Below, piece after piece: positions 52,934 through 64,000 of a stretch of 64,000 bases of DNA. Numbering within the stretch: position 1 is the first letter of the stretch; every line of letters begins with the position of its first letter. A program made the translations under genes and the position numbers. The stretch is taken from contig NZ_OBMO01000008.1 in NCBI RefSeq assembly GCF_900217905.1, positions 62,001 through 126,000 on the forward strand, given 5' to 3'. The DNA comes from Alloalcanivorax xenomutans (GTDB lineage Bacteria > Pseudomonadota > Gammaproteobacteria > Pseudomonadales > Alcanivoracaceae). The notes under the pieces are model-generated. The model made no database searches, was not told the origin of the DNA, and saw only the letters and a program-made list of their open reading frames with translations.

Positions 52934-54115
52934 ATGAAAGCCTTATTGATAAGGGCCGCCACGCTTCTCGTTCTGCTCACCGGTATCGCTACCGTCAGTG
53001 CCGAAGACCTGCGCCTGTCACCGGAACAGAAAGCGAAAATGGAAAAGCTGCTGCCCGGGGTCACCATCAGTGATTCGCTGGTATCAGAACTGGCCAGTGT
53101 CTTTTATTCACGGGACATGCCGGTGCGGGTGCGGCTCAAGGCGATCAGCAAGTTGGTGGGCATCGACCAGATGCCGCCAGGCACCGCGCTCAAGCGCAAA
53201 ATCTGTATCTGGGACATCGCCGGCCGCAATGGACCGATCTTTCACGCCGCCATGGAGCAGCGGGCTCTGGCGCTGGAGTACGGCATCAATCTGGAAATGA
53301 TCCCGTTCACCAATGAGTCGATCATGGTGGATGAATTGAAAGCCGGCCGCTGCGACGCGGCGCTGATGACCGGCTTTCGTGCCCGTGATTTCAATGTCTA
53401 CACCGGCACCATCGATTCCATCGGCGGGGTGCCGGACAACGACCACATGCGCACCCTGCTGGAAGTACTCGCCCATCCCAGCCAGGCGGACAAAATGGTG
53501 CATGGCGACTATGTGATCATGGGCGTGTACCCCGGCGGTGCCGCCCATATCTTCGTCAACGACAAACAGATCAGTTCCCTGGCCAAGGCCGCCGGCAAGA
53601 AAGTGGTGGTGCTGGACTACGACAAGACCCAGGCGGAGATGGTCGCCGGTATCGGCGCCACGCCGGTGCCCTCGGATATCGTCAGCGCCCCGAACAAATT
53701 CAACAACGGCGTGGTGGATATTCTGGCCGCCCCCCTGATCGCCTACGAGCTTCTGGAGCTGTACAAGGGGATGACGCCGGACGGCGGTATCGTCGATTTT
53801 CCGCTGGCGCAGATCAGCATGCAGCTGGTGGGCCGGCTGGACAAATTTCCCAACGAGATCGCCCAACTGGTGCGCGAAGCGTCGTTCGAGGCCTACGACC
53901 GCATCCGCGCGCGGGTGAAGATCGAGGAGGATCGGGTGCCGGACCGCTGGTGGATCCATATCCCGGATAAGGAACGCCGCGTTTACGAAAGCATGATGCA
54001 GGACGCCCGCAATGTATTGCGCAAGCAAGGCTACTACGACGGCCGCATGCTCGACCTGCAGAAGCGGATCCGCTGCAAATACACGCCGTCTCGCGGTGAG
54101 TGTTCCAATTCCTGA
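52934..54115 (+). CDS. Secreted DUF6091-type putative solute-binding protein, copy 1
   Basis: A 393-residue periplasmic protein. The signal peptide (MKALLIRAATLLVLLTGIATVSA) is followed by a 70-residue region not present in copies 2 and 3 (EDLRLSPEQKAKMEKLLPGV). The shared domain then has KICIWDIAGRNGPIF, RCDAALMTGFRARDFNVY, SIGGVPDNDHMRTLLEVL, GAAHIFVNDKQI, PSDIVSAPNKFNNG and LYKGMTPDGGIVDFPLAQI. The last 15 residues carry RCKYTPSRGECS, a likely disulfide. The pattern fits the group annotated as putative solute-binding and the general layout of TRAP-like receptors. AAGGGA precedes the ATG. The substrate is unknown. Confidence 0.85.
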   Translation: MKALLIRAATLLVLLTGIATVSAEDLRLSPEQKAKMEKLLPGVTISDSLVSELASVFYSRDMPVRVRLKAISKLVGIDQMPPGTALKRKICIWDIAGRNGPIFHAAMEQRALALEYGINLEMIPFTNESIMVDELKAGRCDAALMTGFRARDFNVYTGTIDSIGGVPDNDHMRTLLEVLAHPSQADKMVHGDYVIMGVYPGGAAHIFVNDKQISSLAKAAGKKVVVLDYDKTQAEMVAGIGATPVPSDIVSAPNKFNNGVVDILAAPLIAYELLELYKGMTPDGGIVDFPLAQISMQLVGRLDKFPNEIAQLVREASFEAYDRIRARVKIEEDRVPDRWWIHIPDKERRVYESMMQDARNVLRKQGYYDGRMLDLQKRIRCKYTPSRGECSNS

Positions 54116-54137
54116 GCGCCAGTTGGAGACGCGAACC

Positions 54138-55196
54138 ATGATCCACCGCTGGCTGTATACCGCCCTGCCCCTGCTGGCGCTGCTTGGCCTGCCCCCCGCT
54201 CTGATGGCTCAACAGAGCGAAGAACCGGCTCCCGGCGCGGTCACCAAGGCGTTCCAGGAGCGCCGCCATCTGACCATCTGCATTTGGGATCTGGTCGGCC
54301 GCAACGGGCCGATTTTCTCCGTGGCCCAGGATCAGAAGGCCCGTTTCCTGGAGTATGGCCTCAACATTGATCTGGAGCCCTATACCAATGAGCGGGTCAT
54401 GGTCGAGGCGCTCAAGGCACGCCAGTGCGACGCGGCCCTGATGACCGGCATGCGCGCGCGGCTTTTCAACAAGTACACCGGCACCATCGATTCCATCGGC
54501 GGCGTGCCCAGTGAAGAGCACATGCGCATCCTGCTGGAGGTATTGGCCAATCCGAAATCGGCACCGCGCATGGTGGAAGGTGACTACGTAATCCTCGGCA
54601 TCGCTCCCGCCGGCGCCGCCTATATTTTCGTCAACGACAAACGCATCAATACCCTGGCCAAGGCCGCCGGCAAGAAAGTGGCGGTTCTGGATTACGACCC
54701 GACGCAGGCGGAGATGGTCGCCCAGGTGGGAGCGTCACCGGTGCCATCGGATCTGGTCAGCGCGCCCAACAAGTTCAACAACGGCGTGGTGGATGTGCTG
54801 GCGGCGCCGTTAGCCGCCTATCAGATCATGGAGCTGTACAAGGGTATGACGCCGGACGGCGGTATCATCGACTATCCGCTGGCGCAGATCAGCCTGCAGC
54901 TGGTGGGCCACAAGGACCGCTTCCCGGCGGATATGGCGCAGATCTCGCGGGAGCTGTTCTTCGAGGGGTACCGGAAGATGATGGATCGCGTGCATCTGGA
55001 ATCCCGCCAGGTACAGGACCATTGGTGGGTGCCGATTCCGGACCGGGACAAACAGGACTATGAGGTGATGATGCGCGATGCCCGCCTGCAGTTGCGCGAG
55101 CAGGGCTACTACGACGGCGACATGCTCAACCTGCAACAACGGATCCGTTGCAAGCTGGACGCACGCCGCGCCGAGTGCGCCAATCCGGTGGAGTAA
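54138..55196 (+). CDS. Secreted DUF6091-type putative solute-binding protein, copy 2
   Basis: A 352-residue periplasmic protein with a signal peptide (MIHRWLYTALPLLALLGLPPALMA). The domain is very similar to copy 1 with no extra N-terminal region: TICIWDLVGRNGPIF, QCDAALMTGMRARLFNKYTG, IDSIGGVPSEEHMRILLEVL, GAAYIFVNDKRI, LVSAPNKFNNGVVDV and LYKGMTPDGGIIDYPLAQI. The C-terminal motif is RCKLDARRAECANPVE. It starts at ATG 54138 with GGAG 9 nt upstream, 22 nt after copy 1, so the two are probably co-transcribed. Confidence 0.86.
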   Translation: MIHRWLYTALPLLALLGLPPALMAQQSEEPAPGAVTKAFQERRHLTICIWDLVGRNGPIFSVAQDQKARFLEYGLNIDLEPYTNERVMVEALKARQCDAALMTGMRARLFNKYTGTIDSIGGVPSEEHMRILLEVLANPKSAPRMVEGDYVILGIAPAGAAYIFVNDKRINTLAKAAGKKVAVLDYDPTQAEMVAQVGASPVPSDLVSAPNKFNNGVVDVLAAPLAAYQIMELYKGMTPDGGIIDYPLAQISLQLVGHKDRFPADMAQISRELFFEGYRKMMDRVHLESRQVQDHWWVPIPDRDKQDYEVMMRDARLQLREQGYYDGDMLNLQQRIRCKLDARRAECANPVE

Positions 55197-55203
55197 ACCG
55201 GTT

Positions 55204-56562
55204 CTAGGAATCTTCCGTGGGTATCTGCTCCAGAGCGCCAAACATATCCACGCGCTGATCATTGAAAAGATCCAGTTCCGGCGCCAATGCCTGCACGTAG
55301 CGGTCGAAATAGAGAAACTGCTTGAGCAGCAGAGCGAACTCCCGCGGGAACCGGATACCATGGTCCTCGCCGATGCGCACCAGATCCATCAGCAAACGAT
55401 TGACCTCACGATCGTTGCGGTCGGCCTGCACCAACGATGACGGATCGACCCGGGTGAGGCGCTCCTGCAAAGCGGTGATATCCCGCGCCAGCGCATCCAC
55501 ATCCACTTCTTCCCGGGTCATGCCCACCATCACCATGGACCGGGCCATGGTCTGGACGTCGCCATTGCCAATCGCCTCAAGAAAACTGGACATGCCCTCC
55601 CAGGCTTCACGGCGAATACGCCCGACCATGCCGAAGTCGATGAAACCGACACGGCCGTCTTCCAGCACCATCAGGTTGCCAGCGTGCAGATCGGCGTGGA
55701 AGAAATCGCACAGCATCAGGCTGGAGAACCAGGTATTCAGCGCTGTGATCAGCACCCCGGCGGGGTCGTCGGTATACTCACGCAGGGCGCCAAGATCGGT
55801 GATTGGCATGCCATGCAATCGTTCCATGGTCAGCACCCTGGTGGTGGTATGGGAACGGATCGGCCGCGGCGCCACCACCGCGCGATTACCGGTCTGCGCC
55901 AGGAAGTCGTTGAATTGCTCCAGATTGCGGGCTTCCTGCAGGAAGTCGCACTCCTCCATCATTCCCGCCTGCAGCTCCTCGATGACCCCGGACAGCGCCG
56001 AGCGGCTCAACCCCGGCGCCAGTGATTCGATCACCCGGGCGGAGAAATAGAGAAAGTTGAAATCGGTAAGCAGCACATTGCGCACTCCGGGGCGCTGCAC
56101 CTTGATCACCACCTCGGCACCGTTGTGCAGGCGCGCCGCGTGCACCTGGGCAATGGAGGCGCTGGCCAGCGGACGCGGATCCACCCATTGGAAATGCTGC
56201 TCCAGGCTACCGCCCAGTTCCTCCTCCACCACCCCACGGATATAGTGGAAGGACAGCGGCGGGGTCCGATCCAGGCATTTCTGAAATGCCTCCACGTACT
56301 CTTCCGGAAACAGTGACGGCGAGCTGGCGATGAACTGCCCCAGCTTGATGTACGTCGCGCCCAGGGATTCAAAAGTAGCGCGCAACCGTTCCGGCAGGGC
56401 ATCACGATCACCGAGCGCCCACCCTAACCCCTGGCGGCCCACCACACCGAGAGTCTCGATGATGCGCAGGGCGCCCCGGGCCGTGTTCCTCGCCAGCGCC
56501 AGACCGGAGCGCTCGCGCAACAGATCGGCGCGAGCGCCGGTAACCGAAGAAGGCTGTGTCAT
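55204..56562 (-). CDS. UbiB/ABC1-family atypical kinase
   Basis: A protein of about 452 residues of the ABC1/AarF/UbiB family. The KxGQ motif is [31 protein letters not shown] is the modified A-rich loop, [10 protein letters not shown] holds the catalytic-site Lys, [12 protein letters not shown] is the catalytic loop, and [10 protein letters not shown] is the DFG. The canonical C-terminal two-helix anchor of UbiB is not clearly seen. There are no ubi genes beside it, and it sits on the opposite strand inside the binding-protein locus, converging on copy 2 with 7 bp between the stops. It may act in quinone or lipid trafficking. Confidence 0.85.
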
Positions 56563-56988
56563 CACGTCTGTGTCCCTGTTTAAAAATGAATCGCCCTGGG
56601 CCGCTAAACTACCGGAAAAGGGTAACCATAAAAACCGCGACGATTTTTACCTCGAGGTTAATTATGACCAGCCGGTCTTTCTGTCCCCTTTTTTTATCCT
56701 GGTTCACGACTGTCCACTCAAAGATCCAGGGCTTAAAGGGTAACCGTCTGATTTTATTACCAAGATCCCGGGAGGCCCAGCGTTTAAGTAAACTTCATTG
56801 GCTGTTCCGACAGGAGAGCGCCGACGTACGGTCATTTCCCCTGGTCCCGTGCAAATCCATGATCCCCTTGCTGGCGTCCATATGTAATGGCTTACATGCA
56901 TTTTTGTAATTGGCGCTTGTGTCAACGGGCGTGCGTTGTGTACCGTCAAATTTTCCACGTCGAGAACAATAAAAAGGAGCTAAAAGGA
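56563..56988. promoter_or_regulatory. Divergent regulatory region with an ATGTAA-N4-TTACAT palindrome
   Basis: A 426-bp, AT-richer gap lies between the divergent UbiB-like and TatT-like genes. ATGTAA-TGGC-TTACAT (56882-56897) is a 16-nt dyad 92 bp before the lipoprotein start. Small frames here are not convincing genes. I see no promoter that I can name with confidence. Confidence 0.4.
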
Positions 56989-58014
56989 ATGCGTTCTCTA
57001 ATAACCAAAATGCTGCGACCCGCGCGTGTACTGATCGCCGGCGGCGCCCTGCTCGCACTGCAGGGCTGTGGCATGATCTATAAAACCACCGGGGATATTC
57101 TGGTCAGCTTCGGCCAGGCGGAATTACTGCCTTATATGCTGGCCTACGACGATGTCCGCATGGGCTGCATCATGGGTGAAGCCCAGACTCCTCTCCTGAT
57201 GTCCTTCGAAACCGTGGGTTCCCATCCCGGCCGCCTGGGCGTGATGACCTTCGTGACCTCGGCGGTGTGCGCCGAACAGCTTTCCCTGGAATCCGAACTG
57301 CGCTACCTGCGTGCCATGAAGGAAGGCCGGGTCGCCGAAGCCCAGGATGCCCGCATCGAGCAAAAACGCTGGTCCGCCCTGGCCGCCGAGCGCCTGCTCA
57401 CCGCCTACCAGCGCCTGGAAGTGGAATACGGCAAGTTGGACGAAGGCGAGTGCCCCAAACTGAATCGCAAGCTGGATCAACTGGTGTGGCTGGTGGGTAA
57501 CATTGCCGGCGCTCAGGCACTGGTGGCCGACGGTGCCGCCGACGGCGTGGTCGGTGTGCCGCGGGATATCGTTGGCAAAGTCGCCCGCAACGCCTCCTGC
57601 CTGAGCAACGAGAACTGGTGGGGCGCTCCGGAAGGCCTGCGCGCCACGATCTGGAACCTGCTGCCGCAGCTGGCTCCGGAAGGCGCTCAACCCTGGCCGA
57701 AGCTGGAACAGTCGGCCGAGATGGGCTTCGAGAAAGGTGTGCGTCTGGGCAGCGCGTTCCTGGCGCTGAGCGCTTACAGCAAGGGCGACAATGATCGTCT
57801 GCGCAAAGCGATTCGCGATTTCGCCGCCAACGACGAAAACCTGGACCCGGACTACGCCATGATCGACGCCATCGCCAGCGTCCTGATACAGGGCCTGTCC
57901 GATCGCATGTGGACCGAAGCCACGGGCAAGCGGACTCCGGTGAACGGTCTGGGCACCTTCTGGGATGACCAGCCCTCTTCCGGCTCCAAAGTTGACATCG
58001 ACGATCTGCTGTAA
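56989..58014 (+). CDS. Lipoprotein, TatT-like (TRAP T-component) candidate
   Basis: A 341-residue lipoprotein. The signal peptide (VLIAGGALLALQGC) has Cys27 as the lipidated residue. The mature part looks almost fully helical: EAQTPLLMSFETVGSHPGRLG, SLESELRYLRAMKEGRVAEA, AAERLLTAYQRLEVEY and KGVRLGSAFLALSAYSKG. This recalls the TPR-like architecture of TatT proteins that accompany some TRAP transporters. Assignment to TatT is inference from pattern and neighbours, not from an alignment. GGAG lies 9 nt before the ATG. It is followed after 72 nt by binding-protein copy 3. Confidence 0.7.
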   Translation: MRSLITKMLRPARVLIAGGALLALQGCGMIYKTTGDILVSFGQAELLPYMLAYDDVRMGCIMGEAQTPLLMSFETVGSHPGRLGVMTFVTSAVCAEQLSLESELRYLRAMKEGRVAEAQDARIEQKRWSALAAERLLTAYQRLEVEYGKLDEGECPKLNRKLDQLVWLVGNIAGAQALVADGAADGVVGVPRDIVGKVARNASCLSNENWWGAPEGLRATIWNLLPQLAPEGAQPWPKLEQSAEMGFEKGVRLGSAFLALSAYSKGDNDRLRKAIRDFAANDENLDPDYAMIDAIASVLIQGLSDRMWTEATGKRTPVNGLGTFWDDQPSSGSKVDIDDLL

Positions 58015-58086
58015 CGGGACCGGAGGGCCTTCCCCCGCTGGCAGGCTCTCCTCCCGATAATCAAAAAAACCAGGAGAGACGATCTC

Positions 58087-59100
58087 ATGCGCTACAAGAA
58101 AGCGTTAACCGCCGTGATGGCGACCGTACTGGGCCTGGCCGCGGCCGGCGCCCATGCCGCCGAGAAACGGACCTTGTGTGTCTTTGACATCATCGGTGCC
58201 AGTGGCGACGTCTACAACGTGATGAAGGACTACCGTACCGCCGCCGCCGGCTGGGGTGCCGACATCGACCTCAAGCCCTACACCGACGAGAAGATCACCG
58301 CCGAGGCCCTCAAGGCCGGGCAGTGCGACGGCGCGGTGCTGACCGGTTTGCGGGTACGCCAGTTCAACCACTACTCCGGCAGCATGGAAGCAATTGGCGC
58401 GATTCCCGATTACGAGCATCTGCGCACCGTGATCCAGGTGCTGTCCAGCGATACCCCGTCCATCAATGAAAAACTGACCTCCGGCCCCTACACCATTGGC
58501 GGCCTGATGCCCATGGGCGCGGCTTATCTGTTCGTCAAGGATAAGGCCATCAACAACGTCAACGCCCTGTCCGGCAAATCCATCTCGGTGATGGAATACG
58601 ACCCGGCCCAGGCGCAAATGGCCGCCAAGGTGGGCATGTCGCCGGTACTGTCGGACATCACCAATTTCGCCGGCCGCTTCAACAATAACTCCGTGGATAT
58701 CTGCTTTGCTCCGGTAGTGGCCTATTCCGCGCTCGAACTGTACAAGGGGCTGCAACCCGACGGTGGCATCATCCGCTATACGCTGGGCCAGCTCACCACC
58801 CAGATCGTGCTGCGCAAGGATCGCTTCTCCGAGGATTTCGTCAAGCAGTCCCGCAAGTTCATGTTCGGCCAGTTTGACCGCGCCATGACCATCATCAACA
58901 ACGCGGAAAACGAGGTGGACAAGAAGTGGTGGATCGAGCTTCCCGAGGAAGACAAGCGTGGCTACGACGAAATGCTGCGTGAGGCTCGTATCGAGATGAC
59001 CCAGGACGGTATTTACAGCAAGGACCTGACCAACCTTCTGTTGAAGGTACGTTGCAAGTACGACCCTTCCCGCGCGGAATGCGCCAACCCTCAAGAGTAA
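58087..59100 (+). CDS. Secreted DUF6091-type putative solute-binding protein, copy 3
   Basis: A 337-residue periplasmic protein with a signal peptide (ALTAVMATVLGLAAAGAHAA). The domain is the same as in copies 1 and 2 but more diverged: TLCVFDIIGASGDVYNVM, QCDGAVLTGLRVRQFNHYSG, GAAYLFVKDKAI, LSDITNFAGRFNNNSVDI, and LYKGLQPDGGIIRYTLGQL. The C-terminal motif RCKYDPSRAECANPQE is kept. GAGAGACGATCTC lies before the ATG. It is the copy nearest the permeases and is probably their main receptor. Confidence 0.86.
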   Translation: MRYKKALTAVMATVLGLAAAGAHAAEKRTLCVFDIIGASGDVYNVMKDYRTAAAGWGADIDLKPYTDEKITAEALKAGQCDGAVLTGLRVRQFNHYSGSMEAIGAIPDYEHLRTVIQVLSSDTPSINEKLTSGPYTIGGLMPMGAAYLFVKDKAINNVNALSGKSISVMEYDPAQAQMAAKVGMSPVLSDITNFAGRFNNNSVDICFAPVVAYSALELYKGLQPDGGIIRYTLGQLTTQIVLRKDRFSEDFVKQSRKFMFGQFDRAMTIINNAENEVDKKWWIELPEEDKRGYDEMLREARIEMTQDGIYSKDLTNLLLKVRCKYDPSRAECANPQE

Positions 59101-59112
59101 CACCTGAAACCG

Positions 59113-59133
59113 CGGGGCCGGCCTCCGGCCCCG
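59113..59133 (+). terminator. Hairpin between binding protein 3 and permease 1
   Basis: CGGGGCCGG-CCT-CCGGCCCCG, a perfect 9-bp stem, lies 12 nt past the stop, followed by TTCTCC rather than a T-run. It may partly attenuate transcription so that receptor exceeds permease, as is common in uptake operons. Confidence 0.5.
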
Positions 59134-59264
59134 TTCTCCATTCCCTCCACCACTTCCGGCGCTTCGGCCATACCGGCGCGAAGGGGTGAAGTATATGCTC
59201 GCTCGAAAAGGTCGTTTTCATACGCGGCGATCTCATTGCTGGCATAACAAAAACCGGGTGAAAA

Positions 59265-61610
59265 ATGGATAAACCAACCTTTACCGTGGCGAACCGTTCC
59301 ATCAAGGAATGGGTATCCTCCCTGCCGACCCTGATCATCCTTCTGCTGACGATTTTTCTTTCTTCCGGTGAAATTATTCACTCCCAATTATTGAAGATAG
59401 GTGAGAACACCTGGGAGAGTTATTTCCTGCTGCGTGGCGCCGGCATGGTGCAGGAGCCAACCTGCAACCCGGACCCGAACATCGATCAGCTCACCCGGGA
59501 AACGGTACGCAAGCGCCAACAGGAAGCCGCCGATGATCCGCTGGCGGACGTGCTCGGCACTTCCGAAGTCAACGAGGACGCCATCCGCCAGTCTCTGGAA
59601 CGCTCCAGGGAAAACTGCCGGACCCGCTGGGAGCGTTTCCAGACCATAGAGGAAAGGGTCACACCCGGTGTCATCGCCTTCCGTACCGTCGAGGGCGGCG
59701 TGGCGAAAATCGTCTCCACTCTCGGCGACTACAAACGTCTGCTGTTGTGTCTTCTGGTCTTGATCTGCGCCGCCACCGCCACGCTGGGCCGGCACCATAT
59801 CGCCCTGCGGCCGCAACGAACGGTGAAGGATTATCTTGTTTCCACCACGGCGCAATTGATCGCCAACGCGCTGCTGCTTTCCTCCGCTTTCGTTTATCGC
59901 ATGGAGGAAGTCGCCGCCATGGATTCCGGCGTGCGCGTCGGCCACTTCTATCTGCACCAGTTCTGGATCGCCGGCTTCGCCATTCTCACCGCCGCCTCCC
60001 TATACCAGTTGATGAGCCGTCCCAAGGATCTGGAATCCGGCGGCTCCTGGGGCAAGGCCCTGCTCACCATTCCGCTGTACAGTTTCATGGCTTTGACCGC
60101 TTCGGCGCAGTTCCTCAGCCAGGGCTATTACCACGGTATCGCCGTGTACCTGGGCATGATGATGGAAATGTCCACGCTGTTCCTGAACCTGGCGCTGTAC
60201 ATCTGGATCGGCATGATGCTGAAGCAAACCAAGCTGGCCCATCTGGTGTTCGATGTATTGCGGCCATGGAAAATGTCACCGGAACTGATGGCTTTCGTGG
60301 TGCTGGCCGTTGCGGCCATCCCCACCGCTTACACCGGTGCTTCCGGTATCTTCGTGATCGCCGCCGGTGCCACCATCTACAATGAACTGATCCGCGCCGG
60401 CGCGCGCAAACAGCTGGCTCTGGCCGCCACCGCCATGTCCGGCTCCATGGGTGTGGTACTGCGCCCCTGTCTGCTGGTGGTGATCATCGCCGCGCTGAAC
60501 AAGAGCGTGACCACCGCCGAACTGTTCAATTCCGGCATCAAGATCTTCATTCTCAGCCTGGTGCTGTTCTTCATATACAGCCAGTTCGCACGCACATCAC
60601 CGGCCCGCATCGCGCCGTTCTCCGAGGCTCTGCCACACAGTCTGAAGCGGCTGATACCGCTGCTGCCCTACGGCATCGTGGTCGGCACCGTGCTGGTGTT
60701 CTTCAGCGACGTTCTGAACCGTCACCTGGATGAGTTCTCCGCCCCGATCATTCTGCCGGTAATGCTGCTGGCCGTGCTGTTCTACGAAAAACTCAGCCGT
60801 CATTTCCTGCACCTGTTCGCGTTGGCACTGATCCCCATGCTGGTGATCTCCTTCATGGACACCTGGAACGGCTATCAGGCCTTGCAGAGCGGAGAGATCC
60901 CCACCGGCTGGACCATCGTGACACTGCAGAACCATCTTTGGGGACTGTTCTGGCGCAACGTGATTCTCGGCGGCTTCATCGTCGTTCACTATCTGGTGGC
61001 GCCCCGCATGAAAGGCAATGGCGATACCGATCCTCACTATGCTCCCGAGGAAGGCGTCTCTGAAAAGCTGGAAGGCTCTCTGCGCTTCTCCACCAACGAG
61101 ACCACCACTCACATCGGCGCGCTTTTGATGTTGATGGCACTGTCGGTGAGCACCGGCGGCATCATCGAACGCTCCGGTCTGATGGAAATGCTGCCCGAGG
61201 CGTTCTCCTCGATCTGGATCGCGATGACCATTCTGGTAGTGACCATGGTGGTCATCGGTATGATCATGGACCCCTATGGCGCGGTGATTCTGGTGAACGC
61301 CACCATCGCCCAGGTGGCGTTCAACAACGGTATCGATCCATTGCATTTCTGGATGATCACACTGGTGGCATTCGAATTGGGTTATCTGACCCCGCCGGTG
61401 GCCCTTAACCACTTGCTGACCCGGCAGGTGGTGGGTGACGACGAGGTGGAAAGCGCCAAACTTCACAGCGGCACGTTCTTCCGCCGCTATGAGAAGTTCC
61501 TGCTGCCCATCGCGGTCATGCTCACGGCGCTGCTGGCGGTGAGCTATCTGCCGCTGATGTCCGAGGGGCTGCACCAGTGGCTGTTCCACAAAATACAGGT
61601 GGCCATGTAA
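59265..61610 (+). CDS. Large TRAP-like permease (DctM-related), copy 1
   Basis: A 781-residue membrane protein. A first helix (residues 20-40) is followed by a periplasmic loop of about 110 residues with conserved Cys67 and Cys118 (TCNPDPNID and RENCRTRW). About 13-15 helices then follow. The central region VVLAVAAIPTAYTGASGIFV ... AATAMSGSMGVVLRPCLLVV is DctM-like. The C-terminal region (about 664-715: MIMDPYGAVILVNATIAQ, GIDPLHFWMITLVAFELGYL, TPPVALN) is the clearest DctM signature. The size fits a fused small-plus-large TRAP permease. Only a weak ribosome site (GGGTGA) precedes the ATG. A terminator follows. Confidence 0.82.
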   Translation: MDKPTFTVANRSIKEWVSSLPTLIILLLTIFLSSGEIIHSQLLKIGENTWESYFLLRGAGMVQEPTCNPDPNIDQLTRETVRKRQQEAADDPLADVLGTSEVNEDAIRQSLERSRENCRTRWERFQTIEERVTPGVIAFRTVEGGVAKIVSTLGDYKRLLLCLLVLICAATATLGRHHIALRPQRTVKDYLVSTTAQLIANALLLSSAFVYRMEEVAAMDSGVRVGHFYLHQFWIAGFAILTAASLYQLMSRPKDLESGGSWGKALLTIPLYSFMALTASAQFLSQGYYHGIAVYLGMMMEMSTLFLNLALYIWIGMMLKQTKLAHLVFDVLRPWKMSPELMAFVVLAVAAIPTAYTGASGIFVIAAGATIYNELIRAGARKQLALAATAMSGSMGVVLRPCLLVVIIAALNKSVTTAELFNSGIKIFILSLVLFFIYSQFARTSPARIAPFSEALPHSLKRLIPLLPYGIVVGTVLVFFSDVLNRHLDEFSAPIILPVMLLAVLFYEKLSRHFLHLFALALIPMLVISFMDTWNGYQALQSGEIPTGWTIVTLQNHLWGLFWRNVILGGFIVVHYLVAPRMKGNGDTDPHYAPEEGVSEKLEGSLRFSTNETTTHIGALLMLMALSVSTGGIIERSGLMEMLPEAFSSIWIAMTILVVTMVVIGMIMDPYGAVILVNATIAQVAFNNGIDPLHFWMITLVAFELGYLTPPVALNHLLTRQVVGDDEVESAKLHSGTFFRRYEKFLLPIAVMLTALLAVSYLPLMSEGLHQWLFHKIQVAM

Positions 61611-61643
61611 TCACCCGGTGTGTATCAACACCGTAACCACAGG

Positions 61644-61667
61644 AAGGGGCTCTCGCGGGCCCCTTTT
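61644..61667 (+). terminator. Terminator between the two permeases
   Basis: The stem AAGGGGC/GCCCCTT with an 8-nt loop is followed by TTTTG. It lies 34 nt past the permease 1 stop and may separate its expression from copy 2. Confidence 0.65.
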
Positions 61668-61745
61668 GTGTTAAACGCCAAGAGGCAATAGACACAAGGC
61701 AACACCAATAACAACAATTCAGACCAATAAGAAGGAGAAATGGCA

Positions 61746-64000
61746 ATGGAAGAAAGTGCCATGGGGGAAAGCATGAAGAGGGGCAGCGGGCACTGGCTTC
61801 GGCGGTCGCCGGCGGAGTGGTTTTCTTCATTACCCACTCTGCTGGTATTGCTGCTGGCACTGTTCCTCTCATCCGGAGAGATTATCCATTCACAGCTGCT
61901 CAAGATCGGGGAAAACACCTGGGAAAGTTACTTTCTGCTGCGTGGCGCCGGTCTCATGGAGGAACCGACCTGTAATCCCGATCCGGATATCAGCCGGCTG
62001 ACCCGGGAAACCCTGCAACGACGACAGGCTGAAGCCGCCGACGATCCACTTGCCGGCGTGCTGGGCACGCCCAGCGTCAACGAAGATGCCATCCGCCAGT
62101 CACTGCAGCGGTCACGGGAGAATTGCCGGGGAAAATGGGACCGCTACCAAACCATTCAGGAAAGGGTCACCCCTTCGGTGGTGATGTTTCGCAATGTGGA
62201 AGGCGGCGTGGCCTGGGTGGTGTCCTCACTGGGCGATTACAAGCGGTTGTTGCTTTGTCTGCTGTTGATGATCTGCGCCACCCGCACCACGCTGGGCCGC
62301 CACCATATCGCCCTGCGTCCGCAGCGAACGGTAAAGGACCATATTGTCTCCACCAGCGCGCAATTGGCCGCCAATGCCCTGCTGCTGCTTTCGGCCACCG
62401 TCTATCGCGTCGAGGAAGCGGCGGCCATGGAATCCGGCGTGCGGGTTGGCCACTTCTATCTGCACCAGTTCTGGATCGCCGGCTTCGCCGTGCTGACCGC
62501 GGCGTCGCTGTATCAGTTGATCCGCTTTCCCAAGGGGCTGGAATCCGGCGGCTCCTGGGGTAAGGCCCTATTGACCATTCCGCTTTACACTTTCATGTGT
62601 CTGTCGGCATCCTCCCAATTCATCAGCCAGGGCTACTATCACGGTATCGCTGTGTATCTGGGCATCATGATGGAAATGTCCACCATGTTCCTCAATCTGG
62701 CGCTGTACATCTGGATCGGCATGATGCTGAGACAGACCCGGCTGACCCATCTGGTGTTCGACGTGCTGCGGCCCTGGCGCATGTCACCGGAGCTCATGGC
62801 CTTCGTGGTACTGGCGGTGACCGCCGTGCCCACCGCCTACACCGGCGCGTCCGGTATCTTCGTGATCGCCGCCGGGGCCACCGTCTACAACGAGATGATA
62901 CGGGCCGGCGCCCGTAAACAGCTGGCCCTGGCCACCACCGCCATGTCCGGTTCCATGGGCGTGGTGTTACGCCCCTGCTTGTTGGTGGTGATCATCGCCG
63001 CGCTGAACAAGAACGTCACCACCACCGAATTGTTCAGCTCCGGCCTCAAGGTATTCATGCTCAGCTTGCTGCTGTTCTTCATTTACAGTCAGTTCGCGCG
63101 CACTTCGCCGGCCCGCATCGCCCCATTCTCGGAAGCCGTGCCGGCCAGTCTCAAACGTCTGGTGCCTCTGCTGCCTTACGCCATTGTCGTTGGCGCCGTG
63201 CTGGTACTGTTCAGCGACGTGCTGGACCGTCAACTGGATGAGTTCTCCGCCCCCATTATCCTGCCCGTGATGTTGCTGGCCGTGCTGTTCTACGAAAAAC
63301 TCAGCCACCACCTGCTGCATCTGTTCGCGCTGTTCCTGGTGCCCATGATAGCGCTGTCATTCAACGATCTCTGGCAGGGTTACCAGGCTCTTCAAAGCGG
63401 CGAGCTCCCCACCGGCTGGACTCATATCACGCTGCAAAACCACCTGTGGGGCCTGCTTTCGCGCAACCTGTTCCTGGCCGGTTTTCTGCTGGTGCACTAT
63501 CTGATCGCGCCACGCATGGCCAAGAGCGAGGCCACGGATCCTCACTACGCCCCCGAGGAAGGGGTCTCCGAAAAACTGGAAGGTTCCCTGCGTTTCGCCA
63601 CCAATGACACCACCACCCACATCGGCGCCATGCTGATGCTGATGGCCCTGTCAGTAGGCACAGGCGGGCTGATCGAACGCTCGGGGCTGGTGGAAATGCT
63701 GCCGGAGTCCTTTTCCTCGATCTGGATCGCCACCAGTATTCTGGTGGTGACCATGGTGATTCTCGGCATGATCATGGAGCCCTTCGGCGCCGTGGTGCTG
63801 GTCAATGCCACTGTCGCCCAGGTCGCTTTCAACAACGGCATCGACCCGCTGCATTTCTGGATGATCACCCTGGTGGCGTTCGAGTTGGGCTATCTGACTC
63901 CGCCAGTGGCGGTGAACCATCTGCTCACCCGCCAGGTGGTGGGCGATGATGAAGTGGAGAGCGCCAAACTTCAGCACGGCTCCTTCTTTCGCCGCTACGA
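61746..64000 (+). CDS. Large TRAP-like permease (DctM-related), copy 2, runs off the window
   Basis: The open frame continues to the right edge, giving about 751 residues. By comparison with copy 1, roughly 30 C-terminal residues are missing. It aligns with copy 1 end to end, with very high similarity throughout: the periplasmic loop with both Cys (TCNPDPDIS and RENCRGKW), the GASGIFVIAAGAT region, and GIDPLHFWMITLVAFELGYL near the end. AAGGAG lies 8 nt before ATG 61746; the ATG at 61740 is too close to it. It is a recent tandem duplicate of copy 1, but the extreme N-terminus differs (MEESAMGESMKRGSG). Confidence 0.84.
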   Translation, partial: MEESAMGESMKRGSGHWLRRSPAEWFSSLPTLLVLLLALFLSSGEIIHSQLLKIGENTWESYFLLRGAGLMEEPTCNPDPDISRLTRETLQRRQAEAADDPLAGVLGTPSVNEDAIRQSLQRSRENCRGKWDRYQTIQERVTPSVVMFRNVEGGVAWVVSSLGDYKRLLLCLLLMICATRTTLGRHHIALRPQRTVKDHIVSTSAQLAANALLLLSATVYRVEEAAAMESGVRVGHFYLHQFWIAGFAVLTAASLYQLIRFPKGLESGGSWGKALLTIPLYTFMCLSASSQFISQGYYHGIAVYLGIMMEMSTMFLNLALYIWIGMMLRQTRLTHLVFDVLRPWRMSPELMAFVVLAVTAVPTAYTGASGIFVIAAGATVYNEMIRAGARKQLALATTAMSGSMGVVLRPCLLVVIIAALNKNVTTTELFSSGLKVFMLSLLLFFIYSQFARTSPARIAPFSEAVPASLKRLVPLLPYAIVVGAVLVLFSDVLDRQLDEFSAPIILPVMLLAVLFYEKLSHHLLHLFALFLVPMIALSFNDLWQGYQALQSGELPTGWTHITLQNHLWGLLSRNLFLAGFLLVHYLIAPRMAKSEATDPHYAPEEGVSEKLEGSLRFATNDTTTHIGAMLMLMALSVGTGGLIERSGLVEMLPESFSSIWIATSILVVTMVILGMIMEPFGAVVLVNATVAQVAFNNGIDPLHFWMITLVAFELGYLTPPVAVNHLLTRQVVGDDEVESAKLQHGSFFRRY

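Follow-up and report, generated by a model that had tools for sequence, protein, structure and literature searches.

AdeT-type receptors, a helical lipoprotein and fused permeases: a probable new TRAP transporter variant close to the TatT-assisted branch, with a probably hydrophobic substrate

The window analyzed here is a stretch of 64,000 nucleotides from the 4.35 Mb genome of Alloalcanivorax xenomutans (C25:62001-126000, contig NZ_OBMO01000008.1), and its last part carries a gene cluster that probably encodes a new variant of the tripartite ATP-independent periplasmic (TRAP) transporters, close to the TatT-assisted (TPAT) branch and probably with a hydrophobic substrate (Table 1). In the list of open reading frames (ORFs), receptors 1 and 2 come first on the plus strand, followed by the lipoprotein, receptor 3 and the two permeases. 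A preliminary description of this DNA had read the locus as a TRAP-like multi-receptor system with three secreted receptors, a lipoprotein and two permeases on one strand. This was right in substance, as all six are plus-strand ORFs at this place, although the row is interrupted between receptor 2 and the lipoprotein by a minus-strand ORF for an ABC1/UbiB-like atypical kinase (55204-56565). The same description noted no separate DctQ gene, and none is seen among the ORFs of the locus. The start of receptor 2 was picked by eye from its signal peptide, the mechanical ORF beginning at 54012. Permease 2 shares 83% identity with permease 1, and its last 118 bases lie outside the window, up to the window-equivalent position 64118.

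Table 1 Features of the AdeT-type TRAP locus in the window
Feature	Position	Strand	Description
AdeT-type receptor 1	52934..54115	+	393 aa; apparent Sec signal peptide; N-terminal extension of ~80 residues; PF19582 E 4.7e-79; TRAP_S1 E 3.5e-9, below cut-off
AdeT-type receptor 2	~54138..55196	+	PF19582 E 4.5e-86; DctP E 0.0012 and TRAP_S1 E 3.8e-11, both below cut-off
Helical lipoprotein, weakly TatT-like	56989..58014	+	341 aa; lipobox Cys27; mechanical ORF from 56887
AdeT-type receptor 3	58087..59100	+	337 aa; PF19582 E 8.2e-92; TRAP_S1 E 4.2e-11, below cut-off
Fused QM-type TRAP permease 1	59265..61610	+	781 aa; PF06808 E 2.6e-14; model pLDDT 84.4; Foldseek IseQM/SiaQM
Permease 1, added domain	59412..59726	+	residues ~50-154, between the first two long helices; invariant Cys67 and Cys118; probably periplasmic
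Permease 1, variable mid insert	60795..61064	+	residues ~511-600; model helices 513-542 and 551-585
Permease 2	61740..64000, continues beyond the window	+	792 aa; PF06808 E 2.8e-14

All three receptors belong to the Pfam family PF19582 'Solute-binding protein AdeT 1/2' (E 4.7e-79 to 8.2e-92), currently named AdeT1_2, and look soluble, with a signal peptide and no lipobox seen. Their relationship to TRAP receptors is distant: the NCBIfam model TRAP_S1 matches them at E 3.5e-9 to 3.8e-11, under its 50-bit cut-off, and the Pfam DctP model does best with receptor 2, also below cut-off. One receptor searched against the PDB by phmmer gave no match, while a receptor profile gave weak matches to TRAP receptors. 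The binding site differs from that of most DctP receptors, 96.8% of which carry Arg-147 or its equivalent for binding the ligand carboxylate (PMC4646407). In an alignment of 37 AdeT receptors (the three of the window and 34 of 67 non-redundant ORFs, from 139), the equivalent column holds Ala in 29, Ser in five and Val, Pro and Thr in one each, and Arg in 0/37. The column was located via HMMER alignments to 4p1l, which has Arg there, and to 2xwk, which has Ala there and which we take to be the R147A mutant of SiaP. Alignments to four DctP proteins of the same genome agree on its place; three of these proteins have Arg there, whereas the receptor of the TatT operon described below has Trp. As the carboxylate-binding Arg is absent, a carboxylate would not be required as ligand. 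Around 3% of DctP receptors also lack Arg-147, among them Tp0957 of the Treponema TPAT system, which is described as having Ala at this position and a hydrophobic pocket (PMC4646407).

Both permeases match PF06808 (DctM) above the gathering cut-off, whereas the TIGR00786 score is far under its own (66.5 vs 268 bits) and Pfam DctQ has no match in either. One permease searched against the PDB by phmmer gave weak TRAP matches, and a permease profile gave a clear match to a TRAP permease. An AlphaFold2 model of permease 1 was built from 40 sequences (the window permease and 39 of 45 non-redundant ORFs, from 102) and has a mean predicted local distance difference test (pLDDT) score of 84.4. Its top seven PDB matches in Foldseek are six fused TRAP QM chains, led by IseQM (E 1.3e-8), and then SiaM of the SiaQM complex; the QM matches span 681-698 alignment columns at moderate template modelling (TM) scores, 0.46 at best by query length. 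Other membrane carriers, including NaS1, INDY, NaDC and ArsB, come only after the TRAP permeases. An unrelated carrier fold is thus not what the model shows, in line with the earlier designation of the permease as TRAP-like. The suggestion that it combines the Q and M roles is modestly supported by the near full-length match to a fused QM fold and by a comparison of residues 155-252 with a DctQ profile of our own (hhalign E 0.0018, probability 15), while five unrelated pairings run alongside gave E 0.11 to 0.59. The added loop that had been proposed is real: between the first two long helices lie 97-108 residues with two cysteines in 40/40 sequences, and the placement of charged residues, judged by eye, suggests a periplasmic position for this domain. 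Most permeases of the window's lineage are lengthened by another, variable insert, the 505-605 segment ranging from 27 to 103 residues across the 40 sequences and being long in 14 and short in five of the Alcanivorax-lineage rows. Outside that lineage, the aligned permeases mostly have 686-760 aa, with two Limnobacter sequences of ~890-900. The 781 and 792 aa of the window permeases are therefore 'giant', as they had been called, in a relative sense only, since five other fused-length DctM frames of this genome have 650-682 aa and a sixth has 876.

The lipoprotein has no listed Pfam match up to E 10 and no NCBIfam match up to E 1, and gave only chance matches in the PDB both by phmmer and by profile. 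In an alignment of 32 sequences (the window lipoprotein and 31 of 35 non-redundant ORFs, from 73), the lipobox Cys27 and four further cysteines are invariant. The residue after the lipobox Cys is Gly, Ser, Ala or Thr, and Asp at +2 occurs in 0/32. Under the sorting rule of E. coli, lipoproteins without Asp at +2 go to the outer membrane, which suggests this placement here. The structural model is all helical (pLDDT 88), and its first Foldseek match is 8g53, a 'bacterial TPAT family transporter' (E 0.055, probability 1.00, TM 0.34 and 0.56), with TatT itself (3u64) at rank 13 (probability 0.95, TM 0.44 and 0.52). Because this fold match is weak and a sequence relation was not found (hhalign E 0.38), the model suggests a protein that is weakly TatT-like in fold and no member of TatT by sequence. 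The earlier label of a TatT-like lipoprotein thus survives for the fold and not for the sequence.

The three types of gene are inherited together. Among 145 genomes of the order, PF19582 occurs in 26 (this genome included), the lipoprotein in 26 and the permease at E < 1e-90 in 26, the next genome following at 2e-11; weaker permease matches reflect ordinary DctM. The presence sets are identical, comprising the same 26 genomes, and this shared pattern is therefore more than chance. In a sample of 398 genomes of the phylum, searched for receptor and permease, the eight genomes with PF19582 are also the eight in which the permease profile matches at E ≤ 1e-20, and six of them are in the order set as well. 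Fisher tests of co-occurrence gave p 3e-29 and 7e-17, although these are not true probabilities as the genomes are related. PF19582 proteins, called DUF6091-type in the preliminary description, hence accompany such permeases in 26/26 and 8/8 genomes. Gene neighborhoods were compared in 75 loci, retained out of the best 80 among 558 relatives that the permease profile retrieved, so that close kin are over-represented, from Alcanivorax, Marinobacter, Acinetobacter, Alkanindiges, Limnobacter and others. In 73/75 a lipoprotein gene is found on the strand of the permease and no more than 3.5 kb away, and the two exceptions (L143 and L146) are at contig ends. The same holds for a receptor gene in 58/75; the remaining 17 comprise L146 and 16 loci of Acinetobacter or Alkanindiges. 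In the four receptor-less clusters examined, whose genomes carry receptors at other places, an ORF of 188-196 residues lies between lipoprotein and permease, and the one tested (L160:9220-9798) is a rhombosortase, with a counterpart at L229:9778-10344 in Acinetobacter. In 27 representative loci the three gene clusters of the module cover 26, 25 and 23, and the next cluster 11. The sharing of permeases by several receptors noted at the window recurs, with ratios of 5:1 in A. baumannii and 9:1 in A. venetianus, where one of the nine has in-frame stops.

The same genome also contains a canonical TPAT operon, located on contig C19 (L256:1212-4929) and composed of TAtT (PF16811, E 4.7e-82), DctP, DctQ and DctM. 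The receptor of this operon is the best match of the AdeT profile among 23 DctP proteins of the genome, ahead of the runner-up by 25.1 vs 15.6 bits in HMMER and by a score of 50.0 vs 41.8 in hhalign. Of 24 DctP places, these 23 were scored after being cut to their match ranges, as the last (L281) overlaps an AdeT gene; L266 has no HMMER row, making the rank first of 22 in HMMER and first of 23 in hhalign. The profile of the permease M-part likewise places the DctM of the TatT operon first of 22 in the genome (85.4 vs 55.4 bits, HMMER), where the 22 stretches derive from 27 matches by omitting three window permease rows and one weak place and merging two contiguous C26 rows. Because the receptor and DctM, two different genes, both rank the TatT operon first, the AdeT module appears from these two signs to be nearest to the TatT-assisted branch among the TRAP systems of this genome. 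As a separate observation, the operon is bordered by a rhomboid protease gene (L256:4970-5794), and the rhombosortase identified at L160 stands inside an Acinetobacter module cluster.

Compared with TPAT systems of the TatP(T)-TatQM-TatT type (Tp0957/Tp0956, PF16811), the module shares the arrangement of receptor, QM permease and helical lipoprotein in one cluster and a residue other than Arg at the Arg-147 position, and its nearest canonical relatives in this genome are the TatT operon's receptor and DctM. It differs in that its receptors belong to PF19582, fall below the DctP cut-off, look soluble and often outnumber the permeases, in that its permease has an extra domain and its lipoprotein no detectable sequence relation to TAtT, and in that a canonical TPAT operon exists separately beside it. 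With SiaQM and IseQM it shares the QM permease fold and the DctM profile match, whereas the added domain and insert, the receptors without the carboxylate Arg and the linked lipoprotein set it apart. A further comparison is offered by Methylococcus capsulatus, where BstC is described as a helical T-component protein with hydrophobic cavities beside a bilobed receptor; BstB, however, is PhnD-like, BstA-C resemble parts of different transport systems, and sterol binding has been shown for Bst (PMC10942540), whereas a hydrophobic ligand is no more than probable for the module of the window.

Taken together, the module is probably a divergent TPAT-type importer of the TRAP family, and its ligands are probably hydrophobic. 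A TatT-like helical lipoprotein at the outer membrane would take up or relay a hydrophobic or amphipathic molecule, which one of several soluble AdeT receptors would then carry through the periplasm to the inner-membrane permease, a fused QM elevator. The receptor may dock on or near the extra periplasmic domain, possibly held by a disulfide, and ion-coupled import would follow, with several receptors on one or two permeases widening the substrate range. This reading is consistent with the report that TPAT systems of free-living proteobacteria have mostly been noted in hydrocarbon degraders (PMC5812351). On Alcanivorax TRAP transporters and alkanes nothing specific was found in the open-licence literature searched. 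Several observations weigh against this interpretation. The alignments that place the Arg column on solved receptors are individually weak (E 0.13 and 0.17). In the Foldseek search with the lipoprotein every match has an E value above 0.001, chains of 14-3-3 and complement C3d proteins follow the TPAT matches closely, and chain 4di3_A of the TatT-TatP(T) complex aligns badly with the model; the lipoprotein also has no PF16811 match. The oil-degrading lifestyle of the hosts is presumed, and genes near module copies for acyl-CoA dehydrogenase-like proteins, TesB and flavin monooxygenases were not set against chance and are not counted as support. Expression of AdeT1 in E. coli has moreover been reported to give ethidium efflux (PMC7687900), which is taken up below.

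Alternatively, the module could belong to the TRAP family but import small solutes of the usual polar or acidic kind, with the lipoprotein as a structural or docking accessory rather than a carrier of hydrophobic ligands. The TRAP relationship of receptors and permease suits this idea, as do the predominantly high affinity of known TRAP transporters for carboxylate-containing substrates and the binding of ethanolamine by Csal_0678, another receptor without the Arg (PMC4646407). We nevertheless regard it as unlikely given that the carboxylate Arg is missing from every aligned receptor, that the TatT operon supplies the nearest match for both receptor and DctM, and that the lipoprotein gene is linked in nearly all loci; to our knowledge, ordinary DctPQM systems have no linked lipoprotein gene. 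Export of lipids, or their movement within the envelope for upkeep of the outer membrane, would be a second function compatible with an outer-membrane-type lipoprotein and a soluble carrier, and one could add the kinase of the Alcanivoracaceae clusters and the fact that direction is unreadable from sequence. Receptor-dependent TRAP transporters, however, are described as unidirectional uptake systems (PMC4646407), and the family is patchy (8/398 genomes), unlike genes for general envelope upkeep, which makes this second function very improbable.

The divergent TPAT-type reading also has to be reconciled with the literature on Acinetobacter baumannii, whose AdeT1 and AdeT2 fall in the same Pfam family as the window receptors and are described there as membrane fusion (periplasmic adaptor) subunits of resistance-nodulation-division (RND) drug efflux pumps, a label given to AdeT1 in PMC7687900 and to AdeT in PMC4850262. 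In the A. baumannii record NZ_CP064203, five AdeT receptors accompany one permease of the module family, with a lipoprotein near the permease and the receptor genes, as is seen in Acinetobacter, apart from this cluster. A canonical DctM is missing from the record: besides the module permease, DctM matches only once, with 23.9 bits at a cut-off of 23.8; one canonical DctM of fused length was found in 4/10 Acinetobacter or Alkanindiges genomes searched. NZ_CP064203.1 (3.97 Mb) is of chromosome size and filed among plasmids, as are the likewise chromosome-sized NZ_CP077849 and NZ_CP104448. All five AdeT proteins match PF19582, and at E 0.1 none of them matches a model for HlyD or for RND adaptors, whereas the adaptor beside adeRS, serving as positive control, does. 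TRAP_S1 matches four of them at E 0.016 or better and the adeS-adjacent one at 0.04, all below cut-off. One adeT gene (L231:9258-12225) directly adjoins adeS-adeR, beside an RND adaptor and pump, and the AdeT label probably arose from such a position next to adeRS-adeABC. For an efflux role speak, besides the ethidium result, a fourfold rise in the minimum inhibitory concentration (MIC) of erythromycin with propionylated AdeT1, yet wild-type AdeT1 is reported to give no resistance (PMC7687900); AdeT1 of that study could correspond to any of the five proteins of NZ_CP064203. An adeT::Tn mutant kept a gentamicin MIC above 64 like its parent, as opposed to 1 for adeA::Tn and 8 for adeB::Tn (PMC10648852). 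As AdeT and a TRAP-type permease also occur in the same genomes, and in 8/8 chosen records, an RND adaptor is the least probable of the explanations considered, and the gene set of A. baumannii questions the fusion-protein label. No link of AdeT to TRAP in print was found with the terms used in the open-licence literature, where one paper tabulates a TRAP permease but does not connect it with AdeT.

Beyond the probable TPAT-type importer, a broader proposal is offered tentatively: AdeT receptors, lipoprotein and enlarged QM permease might form a distinct TRAP class that handles hydrophobic molecules. In this class many receptors would share one permease, and the role of TatT would have been taken over by an outer-membrane lipoprotein unrelated to it in sequence, or kept by that lipoprotein beyond recognition; the AdeT 'efflux components' of Acinetobacter might be uptake receptors for lipid-like nutrients. 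How bacteria move oily molecules through the periplasm is poorly known and the substrates of TPAT systems are unsettled. The module provides many natural sets of receptor, lipoprotein and permease, several of them in culturable bacteria, which opens ligand and hand-over to direct experiment. For AdeT, listed among RND efflux genes in the clinical literature, the module is specific grounds for a second look.

Among the best 80 of the 558 permease relatives, from which records of the window's own genome were possibly omitted, the closest named loci for permease 1 are those of Alloalcanivorax balearicus and Alcanivorax sp. 24, both at 98% identity. The protein cluster of the kinase ORF is present in 10/27 representative loci, all from Alcanivoracaceae, and a cluster of acyl-CoA dehydrogenase-like proteins in 6/27 from several genera. 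The flavin monooxygenase near some module copies presumably resembles AlmA. The genome of the window encodes one more AdeT receptor, its fourth, at L010:1550-5341, where it adjoins genes for an acyl-CoA dehydrogenase-like protein and an iron alcohol dehydrogenase. On plasmid pHP-187 of Marinobacter adhaerens HP15 (L177), a hypothetical protein, a putative solute-binding protein and a TRAP large permease subunit are annotated in a row, with the hypothetical protein occupying the position expected for the lipoprotein.

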